A stretch of DNA of 64,000 nt. Source: Pseudomonas profundi. Its GTDB lineage: Bacteria > Pseudomonadota > Gammaproteobacteria > Pseudomonadales > Pseudomonadaceae. Shown one piece after another: positions 38,827 through 62,475 of the stretch. Within the stretch, counting starts at the first letter, position 1. Each line of letters opens with the position of its first letter. The notes below the pieces were generated by a model that ran no database searches, was not told where the DNA came from, and saw only the letters and a program-made list of their open reading frames with translations. The stretch covers positions 62,001 through 126,000 of the forward strand of contig NZ_VTPZ01000006.1 in the NCBI RefSeq assembly GCF_008638305.1, read 5' to 3'. The position numbers were made by a program, and so were the translations under genes.

Positions 38827-38848
38827 AAAAACGAGTCTGTTGGTTTTT
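38827..38848 (+). promoter_or_regulatory. Island operator-like inverted repeat, site 1
   Basis: Arms AAAAAC (38827-38832) and GTTTTT (38843-38848) flank a 10-bp core GAGTCTGTTG. The same arms, spacing and similar core recur at 40281, 53873, 55628 and 62308, each time ahead of a transcription unit. The perfect dyad with AT-rich arms suggests a dimeric repressor or activator site; the family of the regulator is unknown. Confidence 0.75.
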
Positions 38849-38890
38849 AAATAGTGAGCAGGTTCCTTACAAAAACAAGAATCGGGAGAG

Positions 38891-39364
38891 ATGATCAATA
38901 TGCCTCCTACGCAGCTGTTTCCTCTGTCGCTCACCTCCGCTTCGCGTGGGGCTAGCGCTAATGGCGAAAACGTGTCCGCTGATATATCCGGTGCGAAGCT
39001 GTCTCCGTGGGAAGCGCAAGCAGCGGTCGATGACAATTGTAGCGTTGCTGCCTATACCCTGGATCCAAGCGGTTCGTCGAACCGTGATCCTGCCGGCCCA
39101 GATGGTGCTCCGGATTCTGACGCAGACGCACCCACTTGTCTTGTTATCCACCGAAGCCATTCCAGGCCCGCGCCAAACCGCCCAGCACAGATGTTACATC
39201 CAGACCTGAACTGTCTCTCCGTTACAGCACGGGGTTTTACCCCGCTCACGGCGGCGCTGGCTACCCCAGCTACGTTCGCGAACCATCTAAACCCCAATTG
39301 TATTGAAGCCAGTACCGACCTGGTTTTTCGCTTTGAAGCCTTGTCTCCCAGTGGCCTTCGCTAA
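38891..39364 (+). CDS. Doubtful open frame, unknown protein
   Basis: A 157-residue frame beginning 42 bp after operator site 1 and ending 23 bp before the SDR gene. It has no recognised domain, is rich in Ser, Ala, Pro and Asp, has no signal peptide or membrane helix, and GGGAGAG sits too close to the first ATG (an ATG at 38900 is better placed). Position argues for a real leader gene, composition argues against. It could equally be non-coding leader. Confidence 0.25.
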   Translation: MINMPPTQLFPLSLTSASRGASANGENVSADISGAKLSPWEAQAAVDDNCSVAAYTLDPSGSSNRDPAGPDGAPDSDADAPTCLVIHRSHSRPAPNRPAQMLHPDLNCLSVTARGFTPLTAALATPATFANHLNPNCIEASTDLVFRFEALSPSGLR

Positions 39365-39387
39365 CTGTTACGTTTGGAGTATCAATA

Positions 39388-40191
39388 ATGAGTGCAGATG
39401 CAGTTTTGAAAGGTAAGGTCGCCATAGTACTGGGCGCGGCTGGACCAGGAAATATGGGGCAGGTAATAGCTCGTTATATGTCTGAAGCTGGCGCTAATGT
39501 GGTGGTAGCTGGTCGACATGCTGATGAGCTTGAACGCTTCGCCGCTTCGATAGAGGGCTCTTCGGCTGTATGTGATATCACGAACAGTCAACAGTTGGCA
39601 GAGCTGTTCGGTACAACCATTGAACGCTATGGAAAGGTCGATATTGCGATAAATGCCACCGGGTGGGGTTTGCTGAAACCTTTCCTGGAGACAACTGAAG
39701 AGGAACTTGAGCGCATGCAGGATCTGCAGTTCAAAGGTCCTTTCATGTTTCTTCAGCAGGCGGTCACGTCGATGGAGTCAGGTGGGTCCATCATACAGAT
39801 CAGCTCTGCAACCGCGTCTATCATGTTCGAGAATCATGCAGCCTATATGGGCACGAAGGCCGGGATCGATCATGTAGTGCGGTGCGTAGCGAACGAATTT
39901 GGTGAGCGGGGCATCCGCGCCAACAGCATTTCTCCCGGTCTGACTGATACACCGATGACGGCTGCAGCAAAGGAAGTTCCCGGTGTGTTTGAAGCCTTCC
40001 TTAAGGGTTATCCGCTCGGCCGTATAGGCACCTCTGAGGATATTGCGGCCGCGGCCGTCTGGCTGGCCAGCGATGCGTGTTTCATGACGGGACAAAACCT
40101 TCAGGTCAATGGAGGTTTAACGTTACGGGCAAATCCTATGCAGGCCGATATCAATGAAGCTGTGGAGCAGGCTGCGCAACACTCGCGTTGA
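39388..40191 (+). CDS. SDR-family oxidoreductase with unusual glycine motif (paralogue A)
   Basis: Rossmann-fold dehydrogenase/reductase of 267 residues. Catalytic Ser140, Tyr153 and Lys157 are present (AAYMGTKAG). The coenzyme loop reads GAAGPGNMG (residues 16-24) instead of TGxxxGxG, and the NNAG motif is replaced by NATG (89-92). The gene at 55735 has the same two oddities, so they form a paralogous pair. Probably oxidises or reduces an alcohol/ketone intermediate of the island pathway. GGAG at about 39376 precedes the ATG. Likely the first structural gene under operator site 1. Confidence 0.9.
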   Translation: MSADAVLKGKVAIVLGAAGPGNMGQVIARYMSEAGANVVVAGRHADELERFAASIEGSSAVCDITNSQQLAELFGTTIERYGKVDIAINATGWGLLKPFLETTEEELERMQDLQFKGPFMFLQQAVTSMESGGSIIQISSATASIMFENHAAYMGTKAGIDHVVRCVANEFGERGIRANSISPGLTDTPMTAAAKEVPGVFEAFLKGYPLGRIGTSEDIAAAAVWLASDACFMTGQNLQVNGGLTLRANPMQADINEAVEQAAQHSR

Positions 40192-40280
40192 TAGGCGCGG
40201 TGGACACAGCGTAAGAAGCAGAGATAACGATTTATTCCAAACAGTAGGCAACCGCTGTAACAGATGGTGAATTCCATTCC

Positions 40281-40316
40281 GATTAAATAAAACGAGCTAG
40301 TTGGTTTTATTTAATC
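40281..40316 (+). promoter_or_regulatory. Island operator-like inverted repeat, site 2
   Basis: Perfect 13-bp arms, GATTAAATAAAAC (40281-40293) and GTTTTATTTAATC (40304-40316), around the core GAGCTAGTTG. It is 40 bp upstream of the DUF1302 gene start. The arm length is the same as site 5, the best-preserved pair of the family. Confidence 0.85.
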
Positions 40317-40356
40317 GGGCCAGGAAGGACTCATTAATAACCCTTGGAGCATGCAA

Positions 40357-42030
40357 ATGAGCGTAAACAAGAATAACAACCGCTGTAACAAAATTGCCCT
40401 GTCACGTCTGGCCGCCGGAGTGCTAGCCGCCGGGCTCGCATCGACCAGTGGGCAGGCGATGGCGTTCAGTATTGACACCGAGAACCCGGATCTGCGGGTG
40501 CGCTGGGACAATACGGTTAAATACAACATCGGCTGGCGTATGGAAGGTCGGGATGACCGTTTGGGAGACAACTGGGTCTCACAGGCGACCAACCATGGTT
40601 GGGACAAGGGCGATATCGTGACCAATCGGGTCGATATTCTCAGCGAATTCGACATGGTTTATAAAATGAATCATGGCTTCCGGGTCTCTGCTGCAGCCTG
40701 GAACGACTTTGCGTTCGATGATGTTGAAGGTAACCCAGCCTACCAGGCGGCCGGTCTGGGCACGGCGTATCCAAATAATCGTTTTACCAGTGACGTGGAA
40801 CGCTACTACAAGCGCTCAGGTGAGATATTGGATGCCTTCGTCTTTACTCGCCTCGATGTGGGTACGGTGCCGATAAATGTGCGCGCGGGTCGTCACAATG
40901 TGTACTGGGGCGAGTCGATGTTTACCTTCGGCAACAGTATCGCCTATGGCCAAGGTCCACTCGACCTGCGCAAAGCGACTTCTACGCCGGGCGTCGAAGC
41001 GAAAGAGTTGTTCCTGCCACAGACTCAGATCTCGGCCTCGGCACAGCTGACGGATAATGTTTCGGTGTCCGCCAATTACTACCTTGAGTGGGATGCGCAC
41101 CGCCTCCCGGAAGGTGGGACCTACCTCGGTGGCTCTGACCTCAGCTTTCTTGGCGGGACCGATTATCTTGGTCTACCCGTAGTGGGCGATCTGGATCATG
41201 GTCCAGGTGAAAAACCTGATGATCGAGGCAGCTGGGGTATTAACACACATATTCGCTCAGAATTGCTGGGCGGAACCATCGGTCTCTACTACCGGAATTT
41301 TGACGACCGCAATCCGGCCATGGTGATGGCGCCCGACTCTTCCTATATGTACAACGCCTACGCAGAAGATGTGAAACTTTACGGTATCAGCTATGCGCGG
41401 CTATTGGGTGCTATCTCGGTAGGCGCCGAGTTATCCCGCCGGGAAGGCACATCGCTGGCGTCCAATAGCGCTGGTCTCGCTACAGGTGATACGTGGCATG
41501 GCTTGCTCAACATGGTGGCTTTCATTGGCCAAACGTCCGTGTTCGATTCAGCCAGTTTGTCTGCAGAGCTATCTTATAGCCGGCTCGATAGCGTTGACGG
41601 CTCGACTCGCCAGTTCTTTAATCACGAGAGCGGGCGGTATGGGGGGTGTGACGCCGGACGGAAGGGCGGATGCGCAACCGATGATTCGCTGGGCTTTCAG
41701 GTGTCATTTGTCCCGACCTGGTATCAGGTATACCCGGGCATAGACATGACTGCACCAATCAACTACGGCCAAGGCATCACTGGTAACTCGCCTACTCCCC
41801 TCGGCACTGCAGAAAACGGCGGTTCCTGGAGCGTTGGCGTAGGCCTGGATATCCATGCCAAGTACGAAGTGGATCTGGCCTACAACGATTATTTTGGCGA
41901 CTACACCAAGGGAGCGAATCCACTCGCAGCCGTACCGGGCGTGGAGGACGTGGTGTGGGAGAACAACAGCGGCAGCGGGATCATGCACGACCGCGGTTGG
42001 TTGTCTCTGACCTTCAAGACCGCGTTCTGA
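40357..42030 (+). CDS. DUF1302 family outer-membrane protein
   Basis: 557-residue exported protein: signal peptide of about 35 residues ending in GQAMA, then repeated short amphipathic strands with many aromatic residues and a terminal Phe, as in outer-membrane beta-barrels. DUF1302 proteins are commonly encoded beside DUF1329 proteins in Pseudomonas and Burkholderia catabolic loci, where handling of hydrophobic compounds at the outer membrane is suspected but not settled. Start at 40357 is preferred over 40351 because GGAG (40346-40349) is 7 bases from it. First gene of the second island unit. Confidence 0.9.
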   Translation: MSVNKNNNRCNKIALSRLAAGVLAAGLASTSGQAMAFSIDTENPDLRVRWDNTVKYNIGWRMEGRDDRLGDNWVSQATNHGWDKGDIVTNRVDILSEFDMVYKMNHGFRVSAAAWNDFAFDDVEGNPAYQAAGLGTAYPNNRFTSDVERYYKRSGEILDAFVFTRLDVGTVPINVRAGRHNVYWGESMFTFGNSIAYGQGPLDLRKATSTPGVEAKELFLPQTQISASAQLTDNVSVSANYYLEWDAHRLPEGGTYLGGSDLSFLGGTDYLGLPVVGDLDHGPGEKPDDRGSWGINTHIRSELLGGTIGLYYRNFDDRNPAMVMAPDSSYMYNAYAEDVKLYGISYARLLGAISVGAELSRREGTSLASNSAGLATGDTWHGLLNMVAFIGQTSVFDSASLSAELSYSRLDSVDGSTRQFFNHESGRYGGCDAGRKGGCATDDSLGFQVSFVPTWYQVYPGIDMTAPINYGQGITGNSPTPLGTAENGGSWSVGVGLDIHAKYEVDLAYNDYFGDYTKGANPLAAVPGVEDVVWENNSGSGIMHDRGWLSLTFKTAF

Positions 42031-42072
42031 TCCAGGCTCTCCGACCAAGATAACCATTAGCGAAACGCCGCT

Positions 42073-42114
42073 CGGACTGATAGTGCCAACAGATTGGCTG
42101 GCGCTGTCAGTCCG
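42073..42114 (+). other. Intercistronic hairpin between DUF1302 and SnoaL genes
   Basis: CGGACTGA (42073-42080) pairs with TCAGTCCG (42107-42114), and the stem continues inside with AG-GCCA against TGGC-CT. There is no T-run. It ends 26 bp before the next start codon. Likely a transcript stabiliser or partial attenuator which lets the outer-membrane gene be made in excess. Confidence 0.5.
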
Positions 42115-42140
42115 ATGAGGTGAAATAGGGGAGCAGTCAT

Positions 42141-42593
42141 ATGTTGAGCCTTGAAGCCAGGATTCAGCGCATTGAAGACCATCTGGCGCTGCAAGAACTT
42201 ATTCATTCGTATTGCATTCATATCGACGAAGCAAAAAACGCGGATGCGATCGTTGATTGTTTTGTAGACGATGCGGTTCTGGATTTGTCCGGCCTGGGTC
42301 TGCCGGTGGTGACGGGACACCAGGACATTCGCGAGTTTTTTATCAGTGTGCTGGCTGGCACCGAGTGCAACGCCCATTTCAGCAGCAATTTTAAAGTTAA
42401 TCGGTTGGAGCAGGACGAGGCGGAGTGCCAGAGCTATGTGCATGCGGTCGGCACCGCCAAGGACGGTAGCGACATTCTGGTATATGCCAAGCACCAATAT
42501 CGCTGCGTCAGAACTGCCATGGGTTGGAAAATAAAGCATTTTTCAGAGCCCTATTTGTTACCTCCCACCAAGGTCATTCCGCACTTTGAGTAA
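42141..42593 (+). CDS. SnoaL-like / NTF2-fold protein (copy 1)
   Basis: 150-residue cone-shaped alpha+beta fold protein. It has Tyr24 and Asp29 (HSYCIHID) and His79 (NAHFSSN), the same spacing as the catalytic Tyr/Asp/His of steroid dehydratase BaiE and the Asp/His of LinA. That supports a dehydratase, isomerase or hydrolase role on a cyclic substrate; it is an inference from spacing. It is in one unit with the DUF1302, flavoprotein and cytochrome genes. Confidence 0.85.
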   Translation: MLSLEARIQRIEDHLALQELIHSYCIHIDEAKNADAIVDCFVDDAVLDLSGLGLPVVTGHQDIREFFISVLAGTECNAHFSSNFKVNRLEQDEAECQSYVHAVGTAKDGSDILVYAKHQYRCVRTAMGWKIKHFSEPYLLPPTKVIPHFE

Positions 42594-42662
42594 GTGATGC
42601 TCAATGTTGGTGCGACCCACGCGTATATATTTCTACGCCCTCATGGTTACAGGTAGAGCGTG

Positions 42663-44426
42663 ATGAACAATAAAAAAGATAAGACCGAAACGTCTCTTTC
42701 TCGCCGCAGTTTGCTCGCCAGTGCGGGTATAGCGGTAGGCGCGGCAGCGGCCTTGGGCGTTCCGGGTGTTGCCATGGCAGCAAGCTCGGCTGGTAGAAAA
42801 GTGCAGTGGGATCTGGAAACCGATGTGATCTGCGTTGGTACGGGATCGGCCGCGTGTACAGCAGCGGTGACAGCCGTCTCACGCGGCGCAAAAGTGATCG
42901 TACTGGAGAAGATGCCCATGGCAGGCGGCACCACCGGCAAATCGGGCGGCATCACCTGGATTCCGAACAATCAGTTCCTGGCGGAAGCCGGCCTGAATGA
43001 TGACAAGACGGATTGCCTGAAATACATAGCCCGCTATGCCTACCCCGAACGTTACAACGCCAACGGTCCGACACTGGGGCTGAGCGAGCACGATTATCGA
43101 ATGATCGAGACCTTTTACGATAATGGCACGCGTATGGTGGATTGGATGGCGAAGGTGGAGGCCATGTCCTTCCAGCCCTTCCAATTGTGGGAGCTGGAGA
43201 TCACCCCTCCGGATTACGGCGACCACTTGGCCGAGAACAAGCTGAACAAGGGGCGAGCATTGGAGCCGGCTGTGGGAGCCGGTCCATACAGTGGCGGTAG
43301 CAGTCTGGCCTACCAACTTGAAACCTGGCTGCGTAATGCGGAAGTCCCCGTGATGCTTGAGCACAAGGCAGAAGAGATCATCTTCGACGGTGAGCGAGCA
43401 ACGGGTCTGGTGGTCAGTCATGCAGGCAAGCGCATCAACATCAAGGCCAATAAAGGCGTCATCTTCGGTACTGGTGGGTATGCCCACAACACCGACCTGA
43501 TCGAGCGTCACCAGAGTCCGGGCCTGTATGGCTCGTGCGCTGCGGTCGGCTCCACCGGAGACTTCGTCGGCATGGCCCAGCAGGCGGGTGCCCGTATGGG
43601 GCGCCTGGATACGGCATGGCGGACACCTGTGGTACTCGAAGAGGCGTTGCAGAACCGGGCTGTGGCTCACGGCGTCGTATTCGCTCCGGGCGACTCCATG
43701 ATTCATGTCAACAAGTACGGCCAGCGTTGCGTCAACGAAAAGCGCAACTACAACGACAGGACCCAGGCGCACTTCACCTTTGATCCGGTTAATGCCGAAT
43801 ACCCGAACCTGTTCATGTTCATGGTATTTGATGAGCGGACCCTGCAGCGCAACGGCGGCGCCTTGCCCATTCCCGTGGACAAGCGCGAATCTGCCTGGTT
43901 GATCGAGGGTAGAGGTACCAAGGATCTGGGGCAGCAGATACGTCAGCGTCTGCAGTCACTTCACGGCAAACTCGGTACCTACAAGCTGGATGACGCGTTC
44001 GAAGAAAATCTCAGCGCGACCATCACCCGTTATAACGAGTTTGCCAGAACGGGCAGGGATGAGGACTTTGACCGTGGTCTGCATGAGTACGACCAGATAT
44101 GGCAGAAGGTCTTCTCGCCAGTCCGTGAGGACAGCGATTTTCCCGATAACAATCACCCGAACTCCACCATGCATCCGATCGATGACGATAGGCTGTATGC
44201 CGTCATTCTTGCACCGGGTGCGCTGGATACCAGCGGTGGTCCGGAGATCAATGAGCATGGCCAGGTTCTGGGCGCAGACGGTAAGCCGATCGAAGGGCTC
44301 TACGGAGCGGGTAACTGCGTGGCTTCCCCGGTCGGCCCAGCCTACGTTGGCGCAGGCGGCACCATTGGTGTGGCTATGACCTTTGCCTGGTTGGCTGGTA
44401 CCCATGTGGTCGGAGCAGAGGCATGA
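42663..44426 (+). CDS. Tat-exported FAD-dependent dehydrogenase (KstD/fumarate-reductase flavoprotein family)
   Basis: 587-residue FAD_binding_2 protein. The N-terminus has a twin-arginine signal (SLSRRSLLAS, Arg14-Arg15) followed by a hydrophobic Ala-rich stretch ending at AMAA, so the folded, FAD-loaded enzyme should be periplasmic. The FAD motif GTGSAA is at 59-64, and GGTTGKSGGITW follows. The C-terminal GLYGAGNC and GGTIGVAMTFAW are typical of 3-ketosteroid delta-1-dehydrogenases and related enzymes. It overlaps by 4 bases a c-type cytochrome gene, the likely electron acceptor. Start at ATG 42663 follows AGGTAG; GTG 42660 is an alternative. Confidence 0.9.
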   Translation: MNNKKDKTETSLSRRSLLASAGIAVGAAAALGVPGVAMAASSAGRKVQWDLETDVICVGTGSAACTAAVTAVSRGAKVIVLEKMPMAGGTTGKSGGITWIPNNQFLAEAGLNDDKTDCLKYIARYAYPERYNANGPTLGLSEHDYRMIETFYDNGTRMVDWMAKVEAMSFQPFQLWELEITPPDYGDHLAENKLNKGRALEPAVGAGPYSGGSSLAYQLETWLRNAEVPVMLEHKAEEIIFDGERATGLVVSHAGKRINIKANKGVIFGTGGYAHNTDLIERHQSPGLYGSCAAVGSTGDFVGMAQQAGARMGRLDTAWRTPVVLEEALQNRAVAHGVVFAPGDSMIHVNKYGQRCVNEKRNYNDRTQAHFTFDPVNAEYPNLFMFMVFDERTLQRNGGALPIPVDKRESAWLIEGRGTKDLGQQIRQRLQSLHGKLGTYKLDDAFEENLSATITRYNEFARTGRDEDFDRGLHEYDQIWQKVFSPVREDSDFPDNNHPNSTMHPIDDDRLYAVILAPGALDTSGGPEINEHGQVLGADGKPIEGLYGAGNCVASPVGPAYVGAGGTIGVAMTFAWLAGTHVVGAEA

Positions 44427-44848
44427 AGCGTTTGATGGATGGCCTGTTGACCTCGTTGTCTGTAATGGCGATCGGTACGCTGCAGGCCGGGGCTGTGTCT
44501 GCGTCTGCTGCGGTAGAGGATGGTTCGGTCAGCTTTACCCAGGCTGTCATCCCGGTGCTGCGGACTCAGTGCGCTACCTGTCACATGACGGGGACAGAAC
44601 CAGGCAACCTCAAGCTCTACCCCTCGGCCGCTTATGACAGCATTGTGGAAGCGAAATCACCAGGCACGGGAGCGACGCTGGTCGTCCCCGGGAACCCCGA
44701 CAGCAGCTACCTCTTGCACAAGATCAAGGGTACCCATCTTGAGCACGGCGGCACAGGGGGGCGCATGCCCTTCGGTCAGCGGCCGCTAGCGGACGACGTC
44801 ATCTCCGTAATAGAAAAATGGATCGATCAGGGAGCGCTGAACAACTGA
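44423..44848 (+). CDS. Small periplasmic c-type cytochrome
   Basis: 141 residues with a signal peptide of about 30 residues (cleavage near VSASAA) and a single haem site CATCH (Cys50, Cys53, His54). A likely axial Met115 lies in GGRMPFG; the tail IEKWIDQGALNN is typical of the planctomycete-type cytochrome C domain found also in proteobacteria. Start overlaps the flavoprotein stop (ATGA), so the two are translationally coupled and probably partners: substrate to FAD to haem to the respiratory chain. Confidence 0.88.
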   Translation: MKRLMDGLLTSLSVMAIGTLQAGAVSASAAVEDGSVSFTQAVIPVLRTQCATCHMTGTEPGNLKLYPSAAYDSIVEAKSPGTGATLVVPGNPDSSYLLHKIKGTHLEHGGTGGRMPFGQRPLADDVISVIEKWIDQGALNN

Positions 44849-44911
44849 GCGCGACGCCATTTCAGCTTTAAAACCCTTGAATGAAAAATAACAATTACAG
44901 GTGATTGGTTT

Positions 44912-46297
44912 ATGAAATTGAAAATGACATGCGTGGCGGTACTAGGTGCCCTGGGCCTGAGTCAGGGAGCAATGGCAGCATTGAATGCCGATGAAATTGC
45001 CCGGTTGGGAGACGATCTGACTGTCTGGGGTGCGATTCAGGCAGGCAATGAAGCGGGAACCATCCCTGCGTATACCGGACCTGTTGAGCCGCCAGCGGGC
45101 TACGATCCTTCCAAACCAGGTAAACGGCCTGATCCTTTCGCAGACGAAAAGCCAATGTTCAGCATAACCGCTGACAATATGGACGAATACGCGGATCAGC
45201 TTTCGGCAGGCACGCAAAAGATGTTGCAGCAGTACCCGAGCTTTCGCCTGGATGTATATCCCACCCATCGAACGGCTAGTTATCCAGAATACGTCCTTGA
45301 TAATACATTGAAGAACGCTAAAGCCTGCGAGTTGGCTGATAACCTCCTGCAATTGTCAGGGGAATGTTATGGAGGTGTACCCTTCCCGATTCCAAAAAAT
45401 GGTTCCGAGGTTATGTGGAACCGGACGCTGAAATACGATCAATATGCATACGAATCTCCAGCCCAGACGTCGACCCTGGTAGACGCGAAAGGACGAGTTA
45501 TCGAAACGGGCGCTTTCGAATACTGGCAAACCTTCCCTCATTACGAGCCGGGTCGCACAGCGCCAATCGACAGTGAGGAAATGCTGGAGTATGGCAGGGT
45601 CGACTGGACTGGGCCGGCGCGTAAGGCTGGTGAAAAGCTGGTGATTCACGATAACGTGGATATGCTCAATATTGGCCGACGCGCCTGGTCCTATCTGCCG
45701 GGCCAGCGTAGAGTCAAGCTCTCGCCTGATGTTGCCTATGACACACCTAGTCCAGCGGGCGGAGGAATCGGTACTACCGATGAAACACAAGTGTTTTACG
45801 GTTCTCAGGATCGCTACAACTTTGAGCTCATGGGCCGGAAAGAAATGTTCATTCCGTATAATACATTCAAGTTACATGATGAATCCCAGTGCTCGGCTGA
45901 ACAGGTTTATACACCTAACCATATGAATCCGGATTGTGTTCGCTGGGAGTTGCACAGGGTCTGGGTGGTCGAAGCTACACTGAAAGAGGGTAAGCGGCAT
46001 ATCTATCCCCGTCGAACATTTTATTGGAACGAAGATATTTACGCAGTGGGGATGGCTGATAACTACGATGATGCGGGGAATATATATCGAGTTACCCGTA
46101 CCCACTATTATCCCTTCTATGAAACCCATGGACATAATACGCATGAGTTTGTAGTCCATGACCTCGCCAGCGGTGGCTATGTGCGGCAGGCTTACACACC
46201 GGCCGACGGCAACATGATGACGGTGACTCCCGCAGAGGAGGCTCACCCGGCTCGCTTCTATCAACCCTCAAGCCTTTCCCGCGGCGGCGTTCGCTAA
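44912..46297 (+). CDS. DUF1329 family exported protein (copy 1)
   Basis: 461 residues with a 22-residue signal peptide ending in GAMA. The mature part opens with ADEIARLGDDLTVWGA and contains IPAYTG, RPDPFADE and YPTHRTA, shared by all three DUF1329 proteins in the window; the central LPGQRRVKLSPDVAYDTPSP is a family hallmark. DUF1329 is remotely like LolA/LolB lipid carriers, which suggests a periplasmic carrier for a hydrophobic ligand next to DUF1302; the function is not proven. Codon use is more AT-rich than in the core genes. Confidence 0.9.
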   Translation: MKLKMTCVAVLGALGLSQGAMAALNADEIARLGDDLTVWGAIQAGNEAGTIPAYTGPVEPPAGYDPSKPGKRPDPFADEKPMFSITADNMDEYADQLSAGTQKMLQQYPSFRLDVYPTHRTASYPEYVLDNTLKNAKACELADNLLQLSGECYGGVPFPIPKNGSEVMWNRTLKYDQYAYESPAQTSTLVDAKGRVIETGAFEYWQTFPHYEPGRTAPIDSEEMLEYGRVDWTGPARKAGEKLVIHDNVDMLNIGRRAWSYLPGQRRVKLSPDVAYDTPSPAGGGIGTTDETQVFYGSQDRYNFELMGRKEMFIPYNTFKLHDESQCSAEQVYTPNHMNPDCVRWELHRVWVVEATLKEGKRHIYPRRTFYWNEDIYAVGMADNYDDAGNIYRVTRTHYYPFYETHGHNTHEFVVHDLASGGYVRQAYTPADGNMMTVTPAEEAHPARFYQPSSLSRGGVR

Positions 46298-46308
46298 GCA
46301 GATCAGTG

Positions 46309-46328
46309 GGGTTGGTTAACACCAACCC
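46309..46328 (+). other. Intercistronic hairpin after the DUF1329 gene
   Basis: GGGTTGGT (46309-46316) pairs perfectly with ACCAACCC (46321-46328) around TAAC. No T-run follows. It is 11 bp after the DUF1329 stop and could protect the upstream mRNA or reduce downstream expression. Confidence 0.5.
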
Positions 46329-46386
46329 TCGATTCTCAAGGGAAGTATGAGGGTAACAATAACAACGTGTTGTCGAGGTTTGAACC

Positions 46387-47169
46387 ATGAGACTGAATAA
46401 TAAAGTAGCACTGATCACCGGAGCCGCGTCAGGTATTGGCGAGGGGATTGCTCGTCTCTTTGCCGCAGAGGGAGCCAAGGTGCTGGTGACCGATATACAC
46501 GACGAGGCAGGACGCCGCCTGGCCCAGAGTCTGACGGGCAATTGTCATTATCATCATCTGGATGTTTCAAAAATGAGTGATTGGCGGGACGCGATCGGCT
46601 GGGCGGAATCGAATCTCGGGCCGGTAGATATCATGGTCCACAGTGCTGGAATATCCTTCCCCGCAGATATCGAGACAGTCGATGAAGAGGCCTGGCACAA
46701 TCACATGAATGTACATGGTTTGGGTACGATGCTGGGTTGCAAGGTCACTGTCGAAAGTATGAAAAAGGTAGGGAAGGGCTCCATCATCAATATATCGAGT
46801 GTGGAGAGCATTCGTCCCGGTCCACTTTTTGTTGCTTATGGCGCAGCAAAGGCGGCTATGGATTCTGTCACCAAGACAGTTGCTTTGCATTGCGGTGAAA
46901 GAGGCTACAACATCCGGGTTAACTCGGTACACCCGGCCGCCACGCGCACCCCGCTGGTGCAGCAGTATCTGGACGGCGCGGAAGATCCTGTGGCACTCGA
47001 AAAAATATACGCCGGCATGCAGCCGCTCGGGCGCATTGCTGAAGTCAGCGAGATAGCCTCAGCTGTACTGTTTCTTGCTTCAGATGATGCAAGTTTCATG
47101 ACAGGGCATCAAATGTATGTAGACGGTGGAGTTTTGAGTAAACCCTACCCAGCAGGGGAGGGTGCCTAG
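46387..47169 (+). CDS. SDR-family oxidoreductase (classical)
   Basis: 260-residue classical SDR. Coenzyme loop TGAASGIG (11-18), Asp36 after the second strand (NAD preference expected), catalytic Ser138, Tyr151 and Lys155 (AYGAAKAA). NNAG is HSAG here. Probably an alcohol dehydrogenase for a cyclic or acyl intermediate. It lies between the DUF1329 and SnoaL copy 2 genes, 3 bp before the latter. Confidence 0.9.
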   Translation: MRLNNKVALITGAASGIGEGIARLFAAEGAKVLVTDIHDEAGRRLAQSLTGNCHYHHLDVSKMSDWRDAIGWAESNLGPVDIMVHSAGISFPADIETVDEEAWHNHMNVHGLGTMLGCKVTVESMKKVGKGSIINISSVESIRPGPLFVAYGAAKAAMDSVTKTVALHCGERGYNIRVNSVHPAATRTPLVQQYLDGAEDPVALEKIYAGMQPLGRIAEVSEIASAVLFLASDDASFMTGHQMYVDGGVLSKPYPAGEGA

Positions 47170-47172
47170 AAA

Positions 47173-47721: not shown

Positions 47722-47725
47722 AGTT

Positions 47726-49649: not shown

Positions 49650-49663
49650 AAAAGGAACGTGAA

Positions 49664-51438: not shown

Positions 51439-51453
51439 TTTCCTCAGGTCTGA

Positions 51454-53020: not shown

Positions 53021-53056
53021 ATCAACGGAGGCTGGGGTCGCAAGGCCCCGGTTGTG

Positions 53057-54051: not shown

Positions 54052-54110
54052 AACGGATGGAATGTCACACTGACCCCACTGTCCGATTCTCAGAAAAAAA
54101 GGCAGCAAAT

Positions 54111-55627: not shown

Positions 55628-55649
55628 AAAAACGATCAATCCGGTTTGT
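55628..55649 (+). promoter_or_regulatory. Island operator-like inverted repeat, site 4
   Basis: Left arm AAAAAC (55628-55633), core GATCAATCCG, right arm GTTTGT (55644-55649). The left half is perfect and the right half has decayed by one position in GTTTT. It is 86 bp upstream of the SDR gene at 55735. Confidence 0.65.
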
Positions 55650-55734: not shown

Positions 55735-56535
55735 ATGAAACGACTTGAGAACAAGGTTGCCCTGATACTCGGTGCTGATAGCCGGGACAATATGGGCCAG
55801 GACATCGCCCGACGTTTCGCAGACGAAGGGGCACGAATGGTGATTTCCGGGCGTAATGCAGAGGAGCTGGCTCGCTTCGCCGATGAGATCGGCGGCACCC
55901 ATGTCGCCTGCGACATCACTTCGAAGTCCGAGCTGAAAGCAGCCATGGCCCATGCCAGAGAGTGGGGTGGGCGGCTGGACGTGGCGGTCAACTGCGTCGG
56001 CTGGGGTCTGACTCAAGGCTTCCTGGAAACTGGGGAGCAGGAGTTGGAGAAGATGATTGCGCTGCAATTCAAAGGGCCGTTCCTGTTTCTCCAGGAGGCG
56101 ATTGAAGGAATGGCGGAAGGCGGTTCGATCATTCAGATCAGCTCCGCCACAACTCGCGCGGTAATCGAGAACTACGCAGCGTATATCGGCACAAAAGGCG
56201 GCATCGACCACGTGGTGCGCTGTGTGGCCAACGAGTTCGGCAGCCGCGGAATACGCGCCAACTGCATCTCCCCAGGCTTGACCGAAACCCCGATGACCGC
56301 TGAGGCCATGGCGACGCCAGGGGTTCGCGAATGCTTCACTGCGCGTTATCCGCTGGGACGCATTGGTACCACGGCAGACATCGCCGCCGCTGCTGTGTGG
56401 CTGGCTAGCGACGAATGCTTTATGACCGGCGAGAATCTTCAGGTTAACGGCGGCTTGCTGCTTCGAAGTAATCCCACCGGTGCTGACGTCGGTGCCGCAG
56501 TGGAAAAGGCCATGGCGGCACAAGCCAAGGGCTGA
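55735..56535 (+). CDS. SDR-family oxidoreductase with unusual glycine motif (paralogue B)
   Basis: 266 residues, close paralogue of the SDR at 39388: both share WG-L-(x)-FLET, QFKGPF and the block from GGSIIQISSAT to the C-terminal QVNGGL. Catalytic Ser137, Tyr150, Lys154. Coenzyme loop GADSRDNMG (13-21) and NCVG instead of NNAG. Start at 55735 because GGAG (55723-55726) is 8 bases away; the frame is open upstream to 55618 but that overlaps operator site 4. First gene of the fifth unit. Confidence 0.9.
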   Translation: MKRLENKVALILGADSRDNMGQDIARRFADEGARMVISGRNAEELARFADEIGGTHVACDITSKSELKAAMAHAREWGGRLDVAVNCVGWGLTQGFLETGEQELEKMIALQFKGPFLFLQEAIEGMAEGGSIIQISSATTRAVIENYAAYIGTKGGIDHVVRCVANEFGSRGIRANCISPGLTETPMTAEAMATPGVRECFTARYPLGRIGTTADIAAAAVWLASDECFMTGENLQVNGGLLLRSNPTGADVGAAVEKAMAAQAKG

Positions 56536-56542
56536 AGAAAAG

Positions 56543-56568
56543 GGCGGTTGCGTAAGCACGCAACCGCC
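56543..56568 (+). other. Perfect 11-bp intercistronic hairpin
   Basis: GGCGGTTGCGT (56543-56553) pairs with ACGCAACCGCC (56558-56568) around AAGC. It begins 7 bp after the SDR stop and has no T-run. As a very stable stem between two genes of one unit it may protect the upstream mRNA end after processing. Confidence 0.6.
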
Positions 56569-56656
56569 AGGCTGGAGGACAAACCAAGTATATCGACGAG
56601 CCATGGAGCTCCTTTGCGTCACACCGCTGTAGCAATAACAACAAAAGGATCACAGC

Positions 56657-57409
56657 ATGCAATTCAAAGACAAAGTGGTACTGGTCACGGGCGCCAGTGG
56701 CGGCATAGGCGCTGGAACGGCGAAAGCTTTTGCCCGAGAGGGTGCAAAGGTGATGCTGGCCGATATCAACGTTGAACAAGGCAAGCAGCGACTGGCTGAG
56801 ATTGAATCTGCCGGCGGTGAAGCCGCTTTTTTCCCCATTGATGTGACCTCTGCCGAGCACATGCAAGCGCTGATCAACGAGACCGTCCGGCGCTTTGGCA
56901 GATTGGATATTGTCCATAACAACGCTGGCATCAGCGGCGGGAATCATTTCACCGCCGATGTCACCGAGACCGAGTTTGACCAAATCGTTGCGGTCAACTT
57001 GAAGGCCGTCTGGCTATGCATGAAGTATTCGATTGAGCAGATGCTTAAACAAGGCGGCGGAGTGTTAGTCAATACCGCTTCGGCGTTGTCGCTCACGACC
57101 ATACCTGGCTCGGCTCCCTATGTTGCTACAAAGCATGCGGTCGCCGGCCTGACCAAAACGGCAGCCACCGAATACGGTGCGCAGAACATCCGCATCAACG
57201 CCGTCTGCCCGGGGGTAATCCGTACCGCCATGCTCAATAGCCACCCGCGTCTGGATGAAATGGAGCCCAAGCTGCTAGCACTACATCCCGCTGGGCGGCT
57301 CGGAGAGATCGATGAGGTGGTCAATGCGGTGCTATGGCTTGCGTCGGACGGCGCTTCGTTCATGCATGGCAGCCTGATGACGGTGGATGGCGGCTGGACG
57401 GCTGCCTGA
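56657..57409 (+). CDS. SDR-family oxidoreductase (classical)
   Basis: 250 residues, classical SDR: TGASGGIG (11-18), Asp36 (NAD preference), HNNAG (88-92 region), Ser142, Tyr155, Lys159 (YVATKHA). Ends with the usual MTVDGGW. Second gene of the unit headed by site 4, 121 bp after the first with a hairpin between. Likely oxidises a secondary alcohol; substrate unknown. Confidence 0.92.
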   Translation: MQFKDKVVLVTGASGGIGAGTAKAFAREGAKVMLADINVEQGKQRLAEIESAGGEAAFFPIDVTSAEHMQALINETVRRFGRLDIVHNNAGISGGNHFTADVTETEFDQIVAVNLKAVWLCMKYSIEQMLKQGGGVLVNTASALSLTTIPGSAPYVATKHAVAGLTKTAATEYGAQNIRINAVCPGVIRTAMLNSHPRLDEMEPKLLALHPAGRLGEIDEVVNAVLWLASDGASFMHGSLMTVDGGWTAA

Positions 57410-57481
57410 GTTGGCTGGCTATCCGCGTGCTGTTTTCGCGTCGGTTTCTGATGGTTCCCGAATCTTGGTGAGGGCCTGAGC

Positions 57482-58708
57482 ATGCGCAGCATGTGGTTGA
57501 AAATTATCCTGGTGTATCTGTTCGGCCTGGCGGCGACTTCGCCCCTGGGGATGATGGGACCGCTGGTCAGCGACATTCAGCGGCACTTCGCAGTGAATAG
57601 TCAGGGGGTCGGCATCGCGCTTGCCGGTCAGCTTCTGCCACTGGCGTTCGCTGGAGTACTGATGGGCTGGCTGATCGGCCGGCTCGGGCCGCGGCGATTG
57701 CTGGCCATCGGCGCGGTGTTGATGGCGTTCGGTGCTCTGGTCAACGCCTGGACCGCGCACTTTGCTCTGTTCCGTGGCGCGTTGTTACTGCAGGGGCTGG
57801 CGCTTGTGGCGCTGCTCACGGCGGGCCAAAGCCTGCTCATGATGATGACCTCGGGGCGGCAACAGGTGCAGGCGTTGACGCTATGGTCAACAGTTGCACC
57901 GGTAGGCTTCGCGGTTGGCGCAGTGCTGGTTTCCTTTTTTGCTGGTGGCGAGCGCTGGCAGAGCGGTTTTCTGATTTACGGTGTGGCGCTGATGCTTTTC
58001 AGTCTGGCCAGCCTGCTGCTCCCAGTTATCCGCATGACGCCGGTTGCCGGTAATTTCCGCGTGGTTCTGCGTAATGGCAGCGTCTTGCGTTTTGGTATTG
58101 GTCTTAGTCTCGCCTCCCTGGCGGGGGTCGGCACCAATGTTATCGGTGCGTTGTATCTCAATCAGGTGCATGGAGTCTCGCCGGCCCTGAGTGCGCAGAT
58201 CATGGCCGTGGCGAGCCTGTCCGGCATCGCCGGAAGCGTGGTGACCGGCATGCTGCTTGCGAAGGGCGTGGCGGGGCGCCCCGTCGGCACGCTTATCGTT
58301 GCCATCGCGGTGTGCGGTGGCACAGCGTTCTATGTGCCATGGGGCGTTCTGCCAGTGGCGTTGGCCGGGGCTATCGCTCAGCAGGTAGCCATGGGTGGAT
58401 TCATCGCTATGACCTACTCGTTGCTGCCACGCGTGTTGCCGGATCCGAGCATGTCGGGCGCTGCGGTAGGGCTTGTTGGCCAGATCACCGGCCTCGGTGC
58501 CACCATTGCAGCGCCGCTGTTCCTGGCTGTACTGGCTTGGGGGCAGTGGAGCTATCTGTTATCACTCGTCGTCACCATCTGGGCTGCTTGTCTGCTGTTG
58601 TTGCCGAGGGCGCGCGCGGCTGTCCCGGTTACAGGCGGACCCTTCTCGCTTCGCGACGACCTCGCAAATCAAAGCCTTCCACTCAATAATAAAAGGACCA
58701 CCCCATGA
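57482..58708 (+). CDS. MFS transporter
   Basis: 408 residues with about twelve hydrophobic segments and the MFS loop signature near residues 60-75 (GWLIGRLGPRRLL). It is the only transporter in the island and so a candidate for inner-membrane uptake of the growth substrate or a pathway intermediate; export cannot be excluded. Overlaps the next gene by 4 bases (ATGA). Confidence 0.9.
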   Translation: MRSMWLKIILVYLFGLAATSPLGMMGPLVSDIQRHFAVNSQGVGIALAGQLLPLAFAGVLMGWLIGRLGPRRLLAIGAVLMAFGALVNAWTAHFALFRGALLLQGLALVALLTAGQSLLMMMTSGRQQVQALTLWSTVAPVGFAVGAVLVSFFAGGERWQSGFLIYGVALMLFSLASLLLPVIRMTPVAGNFRVVLRNGSVLRFGIGLSLASLAGVGTNVIGALYLNQVHGVSPALSAQIMAVASLSGIAGSVVTGMLLAKGVAGRPVGTLIVAIAVCGGTAFYVPWGVLPVALAGAIAQQVAMGGFIAMTYSLLPRVLPDPSMSGAAVGLVGQITGLGATIAAPLFLAVLAWGQWSYLLSLVVTIWAACLLLLPRARAAVPVTGGPFSLRDDLANQSLPLNNKRTTP

Positions 58709-59787
58709 CGCTACTCAATCGCCAGCTCTGTCTGAAGTCTCGCCCAGAGGGCGTGCCCAACGAAAATAATGTCCGTCTGCGCAGTTCTCCCCTGCGTCGG
58801 CCTGGCCAGGGACAGGTTTTGCTGCAGAACCTGTATTTGTCGATGGACCCGGCGATCCGAGGCTGGATGAGCGAAAAACCCAGCTATATGCCGCCCATTG
58901 CTTTGGGTGAGCCGGTACGCAGTTCAACCCTGGGCCGCGTAATAGAAAGCTGTCATCCGGATTTCCAGAGTGGAGATATTGTCGTCGGGCTTGCGGCCAA
59001 TGGGTGGGAGGATTTCAGTCTGACCGATGGCGAACAGCTGGATCGCATTGAGCCTGATCCGCGTTTTCCGCTCAGCCATTATTTGAGCGTTTTCAGCGCA
59101 GTGGGTCTGACGCCCTACTTTGGTGTACTGGATATTGGCAAGCCGAAGGCTGGGGAAACGATGTTAGTCAGTGCCGCAGCAGGGGCGGTGGGTTCGCTCG
59201 CAGGTCAGATCGCGCGGATCAAGGGCTGTCGTACCGTGGGTCTCGTCGGAAGCGACGAGAAATGCCGCTGGATCGTAGAAGAGCTGGGTTACGACTGCGC
59301 AATCAATTACAAAAACTGCGGAGACCTGACCAGCGCGATTGCAGAAGCCTGTCCGGACGGTGTCGACAGCTATTTCGATAACGTCGGCGGCGAGATTCTC
59401 GACGCTGCCTTGCTGAACATGAACACCTTCGGTCGGGTCGTGTTTTGTGGCGCTATCGCTCAATACAATACTGAGCAGCCAGTGCCTGGGCCGTTCAACT
59501 ACTGGCAGATTCTTGCTCGCAGTCTCACTGTGCGGGGCTTTATTTCTCCTGAGTTCAAGGATCGGTTTGGCGAAGGCATTGAGGAAATGAGCGGTTGGAT
59601 TGCCGACGGCCGCCTGGTGTTTGTCGAGGATATTGTCGAAGGACTGGAAAATACCCTGGATGCATTTTCCCGCTTGTTCACCGGTGCCAACAAGGGGAAG
59701 TTGATGGTCAAGGTACGAGACGCCTCGGAGCCGGCACCGACGATTGACGAAATCCGGGCTGCCGCACAGGAACCCGCTCATGTTTGA
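58705..59787 (+). CDS. NADP-dependent double-bond reductase, COG2130 MDR family (copy 1)
   Basis: 360-residue medium-chain reductase of the group that includes curcumin/prostaglandin reductases, which reduce the carbon-carbon double bond of enones and need no zinc. The coenzyme loop AAAGAVGS is at 157-164; the N-terminal SMDPAIRGWM and the VGLTPYFG stretch are hallmarks. It lacks zinc-binding Cys clusters. Copy 2 at 62476 is similar throughout. It overlaps the MFS gene upstream and the SDR gene downstream. Confidence 0.92.
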   Translation: MTLLNRQLCLKSRPEGVPNENNVRLRSSPLRRPGQGQVLLQNLYLSMDPAIRGWMSEKPSYMPPIALGEPVRSSTLGRVIESCHPDFQSGDIVVGLAANGWEDFSLTDGEQLDRIEPDPRFPLSHYLSVFSAVGLTPYFGVLDIGKPKAGETMLVSAAAGAVGSLAGQIARIKGCRTVGLVGSDEKCRWIVEELGYDCAINYKNCGDLTSAIAEACPDGVDSYFDNVGGEILDAALLNMNTFGRVVFCGAIAQYNTEQPVPGPFNYWQILARSLTVRGFISPEFKDRFGEGIEEMSGWIADGRLVFVEDIVEGLENTLDAFSRLFTGANKGKLMVKVRDASEPAPTIDEIRAAAQEPAHV

Positions 59788-60541
59788 AGCTCCTGTAACG
59801 GTGATAACCGGCGCAGCAGGAGGGATAGGCCTGGCCCTGGTACGGCACCTGCACGGGTTGGGTCATCGGATTGTACTGGTGGATCTGGAACAGGCCGGCC
59901 TGGAAAAGGCCGCAATGAGCGCAGACCTGGACCCGGCTCGCACGCTCCTGGTCGCCGCGGATGTGTCCCGCGAGGAAGAGGTGAAACGCTATGTCGCTGC
60001 GACGCTGGAGCGTTTCGGAAAAATCGATGGCTTTGCCAATAACGCCGGTATTGAAGGCGCTCCCGCGCTGATCGAGGAGCAATCGGTGGAGATGCTCGAC
60101 CGGGTTTACGCGGTGAATGTTCGCGGTGTTTTTCTGGGTCTTAAACACGTACTGCAGGTGATGCGTCGGCAGGGCAGTGGGGCAATCGTTAATTTGTCGT
60201 CCCTGGCTGGAATCATGGGTGCGCCAACCCACGGCGCCTACGTCATGTCCAAACACGCCGTTATCGGCCTGACCCGTACAGCAGCAGCGGAAGCCGCTGG
60301 CGTTGGCGTGCGGGTCAATGCCGTACTGCCGGGGACAATTAATACCGAGATGATGCGGCGCATCGAACGCGACTCTGGCAACGCTGAAGCCACTGAGGCG
60401 GCCAATCGCGCAGCCACTCCGCTGGGCCGTTATGCCGAGCCGGAGGAAATCGCTAGTGTGATCGCCTTCCTGCTCTCGCCGCAGGCTTCATACGTCACCG
60501 GCTCTCTCTATACCGCCGACGGCGGCATGAGCCCCTTTTAA
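59780..60541 (+). CDS. SDR-family oxidoreductase (classical)
   Basis: 253 residues: TGAAGGIG (10-17), Asp35 (NAD preference), NNAG (87-90), Ser141, Tyr154, Lys158 (YVMSKHA), and the C-terminal YTADGGMSPF. The start at 59780 overlaps the reductase stop by 8 bases; the frame is open upstream to 59744 but that lies in the previous gene. GMC oxidoreductase follows after 10 bp. Confidence 0.92.
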   Translation: MFEAPVTVITGAAGGIGLALVRHLHGLGHRIVLVDLEQAGLEKAAMSADLDPARTLLVAADVSREEEVKRYVAATLERFGKIDGFANNAGIEGAPALIEEQSVEMLDRVYAVNVRGVFLGLKHVLQVMRRQGSGAIVNLSSLAGIMGAPTHGAYVMSKHAVIGLTRTAAAEAAGVGVRVNAVLPGTINTEMMRRIERDSGNAEATEAANRAATPLGRYAEPEEIASVIAFLLSPQASYVTGSLYTADGGMSPF

Positions 60542-60551
60542 GGACACGATC

Positions 60552-62213
60552 ATGAACACTTACGACTACATCATTGTGGGAGCCGGCTCCACCGGTTGTG
60601 TACTGGCCAACCGATTGTCCGCGGATCCTTCGAAGCGAGTGTTGCTTCTGGAGGCAGGTGACTGGGACAAAAGCCCACTGATCAAGATGCCCAAGGGCAT
60701 CGCCAAACTGGTAAGCGACCCTAGGCACGCTTGGCATTTTCCTGTGCAGCAGCCGCGCTTTCCCGACACCGAATCTGCCGAAATGTGGGTGCGCGGCAAG
60801 GTGATCGGCGGCTCCAGTTCCATCAATGGCATGATTTACGTGCGCGGCCAGCCTGAAGATTATCAGCGCTGGGAGCAAAAGGCGGGGCCGGAATGGGGCT
60901 GGACGGCCATGAAAGAAGCTTTTCGCGCCATCGAAGACCACGAGCTGGGCGCTGACGAGTTGCGCGGCGCGGGTGGGCCATTGCATATCAGTACGGGAAA
61001 GTTCCGGTATGCGGCCAGCGAAGCCATGGTGAGTGCTGGAGAGCAGATGGGGTTGCCGCGGGTAGAGGACTTCAATCGCGAGAGCCAGGAAGGGGTTGGC
61101 TACTACAGCCACACGATCAAGGATGGCCGTCGGGTCAGCGCCGCCACCGCCTTTCTGCATCCAGTGCTGTCACGCAAGAACTTGCTGGTTCAGACAGGTG
61201 CGAAGGTTGAGCAGGTGCTGTTCGAGGGCTCGCGAGCCTCGGGCGTGCGGGCGAAGGTGAACGGACAGTTACGTGAGTTCGCTTGTCGTGGTGAGGTCAT
61301 TCTGTGCGCCGGAACTATCCTGACGCCTAAAATTCTGCAGCTGTCAGGTATCGGAGATCCCGATCATCTCGGCCCGCTAGGTATCACCACGGTGGCGGCC
61401 AACCGTGCCGTTGGTCAGCATCTTCGCGATCACCTGGGATTCCTGCTGCCGTATCGTCTGCTGAAGACGAAGGGGTTGAACCACCGCTTCCAAGGCGTCG
61501 GCCTGGCGGGTAGCTTGCTTCAGTACTACACCACCCGTAGCGGGCCGATGGCGACGGGACCCTTCGAGGTCGGCGCCTTTTTTCGTACTCAGCCGAACCT
61601 GGCCAGGCCCGATGCCCAGTTGTATCTCAGCGCCTTTACCTATCCCCGCAGCGAAGACAACTTCCCGGTGCCGGACGGAGTCGAGGACAAGCCCGGCATC
61701 ACCATCTACGGACAACTGTTGAATCTTGAAAGTGAGGGAACGGTCTTGATTCAGTCCGCCGATCCTGATGCAGCTCTGGCGATCACGCCGAACTGGCTGT
61801 CCACCGAAGTGGATCGTCGGGCCGCAGTCGCCATGGTGCATTATATGCGTCGCTACATGCGCCAGCCGGCACTGTCGAAATACGTCGGCGAAGAGCTGGT
61901 GCCAGGCGCGCAGTGCCAGTCTGATGAAGAGATCCTGCATTACTTTCGCACTGCCTCGTTGTGTGGCACCCATGCCGTGGGAAGCTGCCGCATGGGGCGG
62001 GATCCTGGGTCCGCTGTAGACGAGCAACTGCGCGTCCGCGGTGTCCAGGGGCTGCGGGCTGCAGACTGTTCAGTAATGCCGGACCTGGTTTCGGCCAACA
62101 CCAACGGGCCGGCCATGGCGCTGGGTTGGCGCGCAGCGGACCTCATTCTCGGGCAAGCGACGGCGCAGCAGCACAGCAATCAACCGCAGGCGGCGTCGGC
62201 TTCAGTTGGCTAG
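60552..62213 (+). CDS. GMC-family FAD alcohol oxidoreductase
   Basis: 553-residue glucose-methanol-choline oxidoreductase, choline/alcohol dehydrogenase-like. FAD loop GAGSTG near residue 10; GMC signature 1 in the GGSSSINGMIYVRG region and signature 2 around LTPKILQLSGIG. The active-site pair is His474 (GTHAVGSCRMG) and Asn518 (NTNGPAM), with the same 44-residue spacing as the His-Asn pair of choline oxidase. No signal peptide. It should oxidise an alcohol to an aldehyde or ketone. Last gene of the unit. Confidence 0.93.
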   Translation: MNTYDYIIVGAGSTGCVLANRLSADPSKRVLLLEAGDWDKSPLIKMPKGIAKLVSDPRHAWHFPVQQPRFPDTESAEMWVRGKVIGGSSSINGMIYVRGQPEDYQRWEQKAGPEWGWTAMKEAFRAIEDHELGADELRGAGGPLHISTGKFRYAASEAMVSAGEQMGLPRVEDFNRESQEGVGYYSHTIKDGRRVSAATAFLHPVLSRKNLLVQTGAKVEQVLFEGSRASGVRAKVNGQLREFACRGEVILCAGTILTPKILQLSGIGDPDHLGPLGITTVAANRAVGQHLRDHLGFLLPYRLLKTKGLNHRFQGVGLAGSLLQYYTTRSGPMATGPFEVGAFFRTQPNLARPDAQLYLSAFTYPRSEDNFPVPDGVEDKPGITIYGQLLNLESEGTVLIQSADPDAALAITPNWLSTEVDRRAAVAMVHYMRRYMRQPALSKYVGEELVPGAQCQSDEEILHYFRTASLCGTHAVGSCRMGRDPGSAVDEQLRVRGVQGLRAADCSVMPDLVSANTNGPAMALGWRAADLILGQATAQQHSNQPQAASASVG

Positions 62214-62475
62214 CAGGGCTGGATAGGAACGGCATAGGCACCGTTTGTCTGCCGATAAATATGGAATAACAAGAAAGATACTTGAAGGAACCGCAATACA
62301 GGTATAGGTTAATTAAAAACGGTCCTGTTGGTTTTTAATTAACGTCTGAAGCTCATGCGGCTTCAGAACAATATCGCGACGAGACCGTGCTCGAGTGGAT
62401 CCGTCGTCAGCCAGAGCGATGGCCCGGTATCCAGTGTCCGAGCCTCATTCATTACAATAACAAGAGAAATTTGTC
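62214..62475. other. Leader and operator region of the last unit
   Basis: 262-bp gap. It contains operator-like site 5 and, directly after it, a 7-bp hairpin of CTGAAGC (62346-62352) with GCTTCAG (62360-62366). An open stretch without start codon follows but resembles no family I recognise. No terminator for the GMC gene was found. Confidence 0.6.
62308..62343 (+). promoter_or_regulatory. Island operator-like inverted repeat, site 5
   Basis: Perfect 13-bp arms GTTAATTAAAAAC (62308-62320) and GTTTTTAATTAAC (62331-62343) around the core GGTCCTGTTG. It lies 132 bp upstream of the second MDR reductase gene. With site 2 it is the most symmetrical member. Confidence 0.87.

Follow-up and report, generated by a model that had tools for sequence, protein, structure and literature searches.

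The stretch analysed here, the window, comprises 64,000 nucleotides of Pseudomonas profundi (G000:C53:62001-126000, contig NZ_VTPZ01000006.1; the genome has 4.21 Mb in 56 contigs), and positions beyond it are given in continued window coordinates. A putative catabolic gene island lies partly in the window and runs past its end, and palindromic sites of 20 bp stand ahead of several of its gene units. These sites are very probably operators of one TetR-family repressor, a product of the same island whose gene is found past the window end. The putative operators in the window are listed below. Scores in bits were calculated with a matrix built from 15 sites of seven related loci (set A1), none of them from this genome; it is called the relatives' matrix hereafter.

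38828 to 38847, + strand: operator AAAACGAGTCTGTTGGTTTT, 26.6 bits; heads an apparent DUF1329 remnant and the SDR gene at 39388-40191
40289 to 40308, + strand: operator AAAACGAGCTAGTTGGTTTT, 28.8 bits, model E 0.53; heads the DUF1302 unit from 40351
48076 to 48095, + strand: weak operator-like site AAAACAGTCAAGGCTGATTT, 19.2 bits; between genes, ahead of the Rieske oxygenase gene at 48297
51618 to 51637, + strand: doubtful operator-like site AAAACATACTAAACGGTTTG, 14.2 bits; at the 5' end of the Rieske oxygenase open reading frame (ORF) 51512-53020
53876 to 53895, + strand: operator AAAACGATCAGGTTGGTTTT, 37.2 bits; heads a DUF1329 gene (ORF 54057-55481, likely start 54111)
55629 to 55648, + strand: degenerate operator AAAACGATCAATCCGGTTTG, 15.0 bits; heads the SDR-SDR-MFS-ADH-SDR-GMC unit
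62316 to 62335, + strand: operator AAAACGGTCCTGTTGGTTTT, 35.1 bits; heads the ADH-DUF1329-SDR-cyclase-like unit from 62476

The exact pattern AAAAC-N10-GTTTT occurs four times in the window (38828, 40289, 53876, and 62316) against 0.02 expected from shuffles, and none of 100 shuffled windows reached four matches. A sequence-only reading of this DNA had listed five such sites; four are exact, but the fifth, 55629, is degenerate, having one arm mismatch and lacking the GTTGG core. With up to one mismatch allowed, eight window matches were observed against 0.83 expected, the additional ones being 55629, 48076, 51618, and 12533, the last inside an ORF far from the island. Of the two sites credited with perfect 13-bp arms, 62316 indeed has arms of this length (62308-62343), but those of 40289 are longer (15 bp, 40279-40318); the perfect arms measure 8 bp at 53876, 6 bp at 38828, and 4 bp at 55629. 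All five noted sites lie, as had been described, in gaps between likely genes ahead of a + strand cluster, with two caveats: an ORF resembling a DUF1329 remnant begins 43 bp 3' of 38828, and the gap at 55629 is intergenic only when the SDR gene starts at ATG 55735 and not at GTG 55618. The site at 51618 was considered as an intergenic promoter site (TATAAT at -7) and was left doubtful because an ATG at 51602 would make it coding. The consensus palindrome is about AAAACnnnCnkGTYGGTTTT with A/T flanks.

In the whole genome, the exact pattern was found at 11 places. Nine are on C53 within about 60 kb (100828-160840), in or at the edge of the island, at 38828, 40289, 53876, 62316, 66583, 75350, 78534, 98553, and 98821. 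Another, C34:162628 on a different contig, has the same 20 bp as 75350 and heads an operon like the island's. The last, C1:212649, lies within an unrelated coding ORF and was taken as a chance match. Ten of the 11 places thus either belong to the island and its edge or head a similar operon, and the statement that the surrounding core genes are free of the motif is true for exact matches. With up to one mismatch, 102 places per strand were found against 57 for the reversed control, so that over half of the one-mismatch class is at chance level. The list of five sites was incomplete: past the window end, a further four (66583, 78534, 82421, and 83284) score over 26 bits, and weak ones lie within the window (48076 and perhaps 51618).

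The C34 operon (G000:C34:155000-172000, L030, site at 7629) carries SnoaL-, SDR-, DUF1329-, and ADH-like genes, as judged by eye from the translations, and this unlinked operon likely belongs to the same regulon. The exact copies at 98553 and 98821 are located near where a Cache-domain protein gene starts; this gene is divergent from a VOC-type gene, whose homologue in locus L055 stands behind a site-headed gene; 98821 falls inside the listed ORF 98678-99685.

When the relatives' matrix was run over 142 kb of the contig, the top ranks were occupied by 83284, 53876, 66583, 62316, 78534, 40289, 82421, and 38828 (26.6-37.8 bits). These were followed by 98553 (24.2), by 98821, 48076, and 75350 (19.2 each), and by 55629 (15.0) and 51618 (14.2), with non-site positions such as 32064 (17.2 bits) interspersed among the lower ranks. 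The maxima of 60 dinucleotide shuffles averaged 9.1 bits, the highest being 19.5. A sequence-only model made from the 15 sites gave nine matches in the whole genome at E<=10, corresponding to seven distinct places, all in the island; they include the four exact sites of the window, 40289 only at E 0.53. A matrix scan had been expected to give hits limited to the island, and this was the case for the model, but one likely target with the exact pattern, that on C34, lies on another contig.

On reading the stretch between sites 82421 and 83284, we found a TetR-family gene encoding 240 amino acids (C53:144512-145234; 82512-83234 in continued coordinates), 18.5 kb past the window end. Site 82421 ends 71 bp 5' of the gene start, and site 83284, on its 3' side, heads genes for DUF35, thiolase, Rieske, two acyl-CoA dehydrogenase, CoA ligase, and ferredoxin reductase proteins. 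The regulator gene had been placed away from any site and possibly outside the window; it does lie outside, but beside two sites. The helix-turn-helix domain TetR_N (PF00440) was detected at residues 38-84 with 55.6 bits (cut-off 24), and no other Pfam domain was found at E<=1e-4. The genome has 18 TetR_N matches, 17 of them above the cut-off, and one is in the island. A single-chain AlphaFold2 model consists of helices only (mean pLDDT 81.2, pTM 0.74), and the best 50 Foldseek rows from PDB are all TetR-family or transcriptional regulators with 14-24% identity. None of the 12 NCBIfam TetR subfamily models listed (AcrR, BetI, MtrR, FadR, SlmA, MftR, and others) reached its cut-off, the best score being 41.2 against 271 bits. 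The TetR_N domain, the predicted all-helical fold with a C-terminal ligand and dimer domain, and the palindromic sites at the putative target promoters point to a member of the TetR family. On the opposite strand, a somewhat longer shadow ORF (82419-83153) overlaps tetR, and gene calling by the longest ORF consequently misses the regulator gene.

Homologues of this TetR protein with 49-81% identity were collected at 18 loci from Pseudomonas, Halopseudomonas, Zoogloea, Thauera linaloolentis, Pseudoduganella, and metagenome genomes. Most of these loci keep a core of genes for E1-alpha, E1-beta, E2, SDR, TetR, DUF35, thiolase, Rieske, two acyl-CoA dehydrogenase, CoA ligase, and ferredoxin reductase proteins; L051 and L052 keep little of it, L053 has no DUF35-thiolase behind TetR, and L047, L049, and L050 are cut by contig ends. 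A matrix from seven sites of the P. profundi genome, two of them before E1-alpha and DUF35, placed its best position upstream of a catabolic gene or tetR in 18 of 18 loci: before E1-alpha or DUF35 in 12, before tetR in 2, and before other island homologues in 4 (81-251 bp before Rieske, GMC, thiolase, and ADH genes). Both the E1-alpha gene and the first gene behind tetR have a top-three position in 13 of the 15 loci in which both were assigned (exceptions, L053 and L054), and in L047, where E1-alpha is cut off, the DUF35 position ranks first. The left arm is often CAAAC in Zoogloea and Thauera, and the 20-mer of 75350 and C34 is also present in L040, L041, and L056. Orthologous regulators thus accompany the same operator before orthologous operons in other genera. 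This recurrence, together with the TetR gene in the island, supports the proposal that one regulator serves the sites.

Of four loci with more distant TetR homologues (30-35% identity), three carry a site shortly ahead of the homologue's gene. On a Sphingobium RAC03 plasmid (L067), two sites of 28.8 and 27.4 bits precede tetR and a further two stand ahead of other genes, and L038 has a site of 23.2 bits about 42 bp upstream of its TetR gene. In L036 (G139:C144), from another family of the order, a site of 19.8 bits lies about 131 bp upstream of a TetR homologue of about 32% identity, which suggests that the pairing of site and regulator is older than the island. The stretch RGAM-HHF, which we take to be the recognition helix, is retained even in the Sphingobium protein. 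The plasmid TomTYG65 (L068), found via the thiolase, was discarded as a regulon carrier; it has no site, the best position scoring 4.6 bits.

The distribution among genomes was also compared. A search of 144 relatives with the TetR protein (E<=1e-15) matched seven genomes, three of them distant and four in the genus (P. profundi itself and congeners with 81, 69, and 69% identity). The contig coordinates of the TetR gene agree between congener G016 and Pseudomonas saliphila (L039) and between congener G003 and Halopseudomonas xiamenensis (L040), which makes Halopseudomonas the probable genus. Among 37 genomes of the genus, the pattern AAAACNNNNNNGTYGGTTTT was present in these four carriers (7, 3, 3, and 3 copies) and once in G009, whereas the remaining 32 lack it; two hits in all 37 were obtained with the reversed control. 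The sequence-only model (E<=0.1) agrees with this distribution. G009 has about 510 contigs, TetR and E1-alpha were not detected in it, and its site heads homologues of two island genes, YCF48-like and MMPL; this fragmented genome holds a piece of the island. In the congeners G003, G016, and G036, sites head the orthologues of SDR 39388, DUF1302 40351, DUF1329 54057, YCF48-like 66639, and E1-alpha 78602 in all three, and that of ADH 62476 in G036. For comparison, 60 of 389 other genomes drawn from the order held the pattern, at 70 places in total (0.18 per genome over the 389, maximum 3) against 7 here, and TetR at E<=1e-40 was found in none of 389 other genomes of the order, drawn separately in the same number and by the same rule. 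A chance origin of the sites was rejected by the window shuffles, the genome-wide scan, the matrix shuffles, and the 389-genome baseline.

The position of the sites relative to promoter-like boxes was then considered with 24 sites, eight of this genome and 16 of congeners, orthologous sites being counted separately and 48076, 51618, 75350, 82421, 98553, 98821, and C34 being left out. A TANNWT box lies 9-13 nt upstream of the operator at 16 of the 24 sites, compared with a mean of 3.2 (maximum 10) in 2000 letter shuffles. At the E1-alpha site of this genome and of L039, L040, and L041, TTGCNN-17/18-TAGAAT is found directly ahead of the operator, and TTGTCA-17-TAGCTT stands immediately 5' of operator 38828. 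The copies at 75350 and C34 overlap a TTGACT -35 box. The positions relative to the -10 and -35 boxes fit steric repression. We infer binding by a dimer that would block RNA polymerase: at many of the better sites the operator covers the probable start of transcription, and at two other promoters the TTGACT -35 box. The substrate or an early catabolite, perhaps a CoA thioester, would release TetR and so switch on about 50 genes whose products would take up and degrade an alicyclic, steroid- or terpenoid-like compound, and presumably the regulator gene as well. The regulon had been put at about 25 genes, which is too low by the presumed operon extents. The units behind the sites are probably co-regulated.

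Several points weigh against this interpretation. The sites at 55629, 48076, 51618, 75350, and 98821 are weak, and when 60 shuffles were made within 200-bp blocks, the maxima averaged 11.6 bits and the highest, 27.0, exceeded site 38828 (26.6). Because the own-genome matrix guided the choice of the 15 matrix sites, their recovery test was not blind, and three of the seven matrix loci, L039-L041, belong to congeners (G016, G003, and G036). The model search scored 150 of 1678 first-look candidates here and at most 150 per genome elsewhere. The 18 loci were selected for having a TetR homologue, and L037, a locus with a distant homologue, has no site with the relatives' matrix. E1-alpha (E<=1e-100) occurs in exactly the same four genus genomes as TetR, and co-occurrence therefore cannot separate TetR from the other island genes. 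As for the promoters, the form and spacing of TANNWT were chosen after the sequences had been seen, eight of the 24 sites lack a -10-like box (40289 and its orthologues among them), and at 53876, 62316, and 66583 the best-scoring promoter box pair spans the site. Autoregulation is less sure because the right arm of 82421 is poor and the tetR-upstream positions in relatives, where they are among the top positions, score mostly 15-20 bits.

These points leave room for other explanations. The sites could be operators of a different regulator, with the TetR gene a neighbour by chance: the genome has 18 TetR_N matches in all, a LysR gene (37765) ends 140 bp before the first site at 38828, and an ORF judged by eye to be LysR-like stands behind the C34 operon. 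That LysR gene, however, is divergent from a valine-type operon, and no TetR_N match other than that of the island adjoins an exact or model-matched site. TetR is, moreover, the sole DNA-binding protein between two conserved sites in the related loci, as mapped with homologues of island proteins only, and the sole annotated regulator of a 20.5-kb Sphingobium stretch, whose gene table is incomplete, with two sites in its upstream gap. We consider a different regulator unlikely. An activator, or a protein that both activates and represses, is quite unlikely as well. Some TetR proteins activate, and at 75350 and C34 the operator lies at the -35 region and not at the start site; however, 16 of the 24 sites are just downstream of a -10-like box, which fits repression, and the closest precedent found, EdcR, is a repressor whose palindrome overlaps a -10 box (PMC8700777).

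An action of the sites as RNA or single-strand leader hairpins, either attenuators or targets of an RNA-binding protein, would suit the perfect 15- and 13-bp arms of 40289 and 62316, which fold with z of -5.05 and -3.00. Yet shuffled sequences fold as well as 38828 and 53876 (z -0.46 and -0.47), and the orthologues of 40289 and 62316 in congeners have arms of only 6-8 bp while keeping much of the 20-bp core. In the 16 orthologous sites compared, the arms are 4-8 bp. The operator directly follows TTGCNN-17/18-TAGAAT at the E1-alpha site in four genomes, and the site at 75350 and C34 overlaps the -35 box and so would not be transcribed. The hairpin was rejected, as arm pairing is not kept across orthologous sites and long arms are confined to two sites of this genome; we regard it as very unlikely indeed. 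Repression by the TetR protein encoded in the island remains the preferred reading of the sites.

The genes behind the sites in the window are as follows, with operon extents that are presumed.

39388 to 40191, + strand: SDR oxidoreductase behind operator 38828; its orthologue is behind the orthologous site in three congeners
40351 to 48061, + strand: unit behind 40289, with DUF1302, SnoaL, FAD dehydrogenase, a 141-amino-acid ORF without family, DUF1329, SDR, SnoaL, and Rieske ferredoxin-like genes; presumed extent
48297 to 53722, + strand: Rieske oxygenase, SnoaL, ORF without family, SDR, Rieske oxygenase, and EthD genes; presumed operon extent
54057 to 55481, + strand: DUF1329 protein behind operator 53876
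55735 to 62213, + strand: SDR, SDR, MFS, ADH, SDR, and GMC oxidoreductase genes behind the weak operator 55629; presumed extent
62476 to 64000, + strand: ADH and DUF1329 genes behind operator 62316; the unit runs past the window to about 66304; presumed extent

The FAD dehydrogenase of the 40289 unit is related to cyclohexanone and 3-ketosteroid dehydrogenases by PDB sequence matches, the cyclohexanone name coming from one paper. The island enzymes further include a ChsH2-like DUF35 protein with a thiolase, paired acyl-CoA dehydrogenases, and five Rieske oxygenases. Together with the FAD dehydrogenase, these suggest an alicyclic, steroid- or terpenoid-like ring compound as the substrate; PDB sequence matches, plasmid neighbours, and passages of papers gave no firm answer as to which.

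The 157-amino-acid ORF at 38891-39364 has no Pfam match and aligns weakly (E 2e-5 and 0.001) to the N-terminal part and to 336-362 of the island DUF1329 proteins; it is apparently an internally deleted DUF1329 remnant. The SDR genes at 39388-40191 and 55735-56535 are 63% identical, each being behind a motif site with a DUF1329 sequence beside it, and the two loci perhaps represent an old duplication of a site-DUF1329-SDR unit. Elsewhere in the window, a 1184-amino-acid ORF at 15176-18730 (+) has an opposite strand that is open for 965 amino acids (15632-18529, -).

Regulation of this kind is ordinary and well known. The regulon marks genes that are probably of one pathway, including the unlinked C34 operon, which could not be assigned by position. 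The TetR protein with a promoter would provide a ready sensor for finding the substrate by compound screening, and the operator-regulator signature could be used to find the pathway in other genomes. It is possible, though we hold it only tentatively, that this TetR protein founds a repressor family, that it controls an undescribed polycyclic or alicyclic pathway in alpha-, beta-, and gammaproteobacteria, and that the start-site and -35-box placements give different tightness for each part of the pathway. A literature search over titles and the starts of abstracts, covering few subscription papers or preprints, found no description of this operator or gene set. The kind of system, a TetR-type catabolic repressor, is thus known, and it is the regulator, operator, and pathway for which no description was found.

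Among known systems, the dit diterpenoid cluster of Pseudomonas abietaniphila, which is directed at a polycyclic terpenoid, has genes of the Rieske oxygenase, CoA ligase, thiolase-like, and SDR types, and its regulator, DitR, is of the IclR type. The island resembles it in gene types and in belonging to a pseudomonad but differs in its TetR regulator. KstR and KstR2 of mycobacteria are TetR repressors of cholesterol catabolism regulons. The KstR palindrome also stands before its own gene (PMC8700777). The likeness to KstR and KstR2 lies in TetR-type control of a catabolic regulon, and for KstR also in the palindrome before the own gene; the difference lies in the organisms. Beyond TetR_N, KstR is not among the names of the 12 PDB sequence hits found at E<=1e-5; it appears among fold matches only (18% identity, TM 0.43).

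The closest precedent found is EdcR, an estrogen-dependent TetR repressor of the edc cluster in Caenibius tardaugens (PMC8700777). Its operator, TnnCnnTACnAnTnGTAnnGnnA, is unlike AAAAC-N10-GTTTT when compared by eye, four promoter regions are involved there against at least eight sites here, and EdcR has the C-terminal domain TetR_C_11 (PF16859), whereas only PF00440 was found in the island TetR at E<=1e-4. On the other hand, EdcR is encoded within its own catabolic cluster, as is the island regulator, its palindrome lies at the -10 region of several cluster promoters with a weaker copy at its own promoter (PMC8700777), and its substrate is of the steroid type, the class suspected for the P. 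profundi island.

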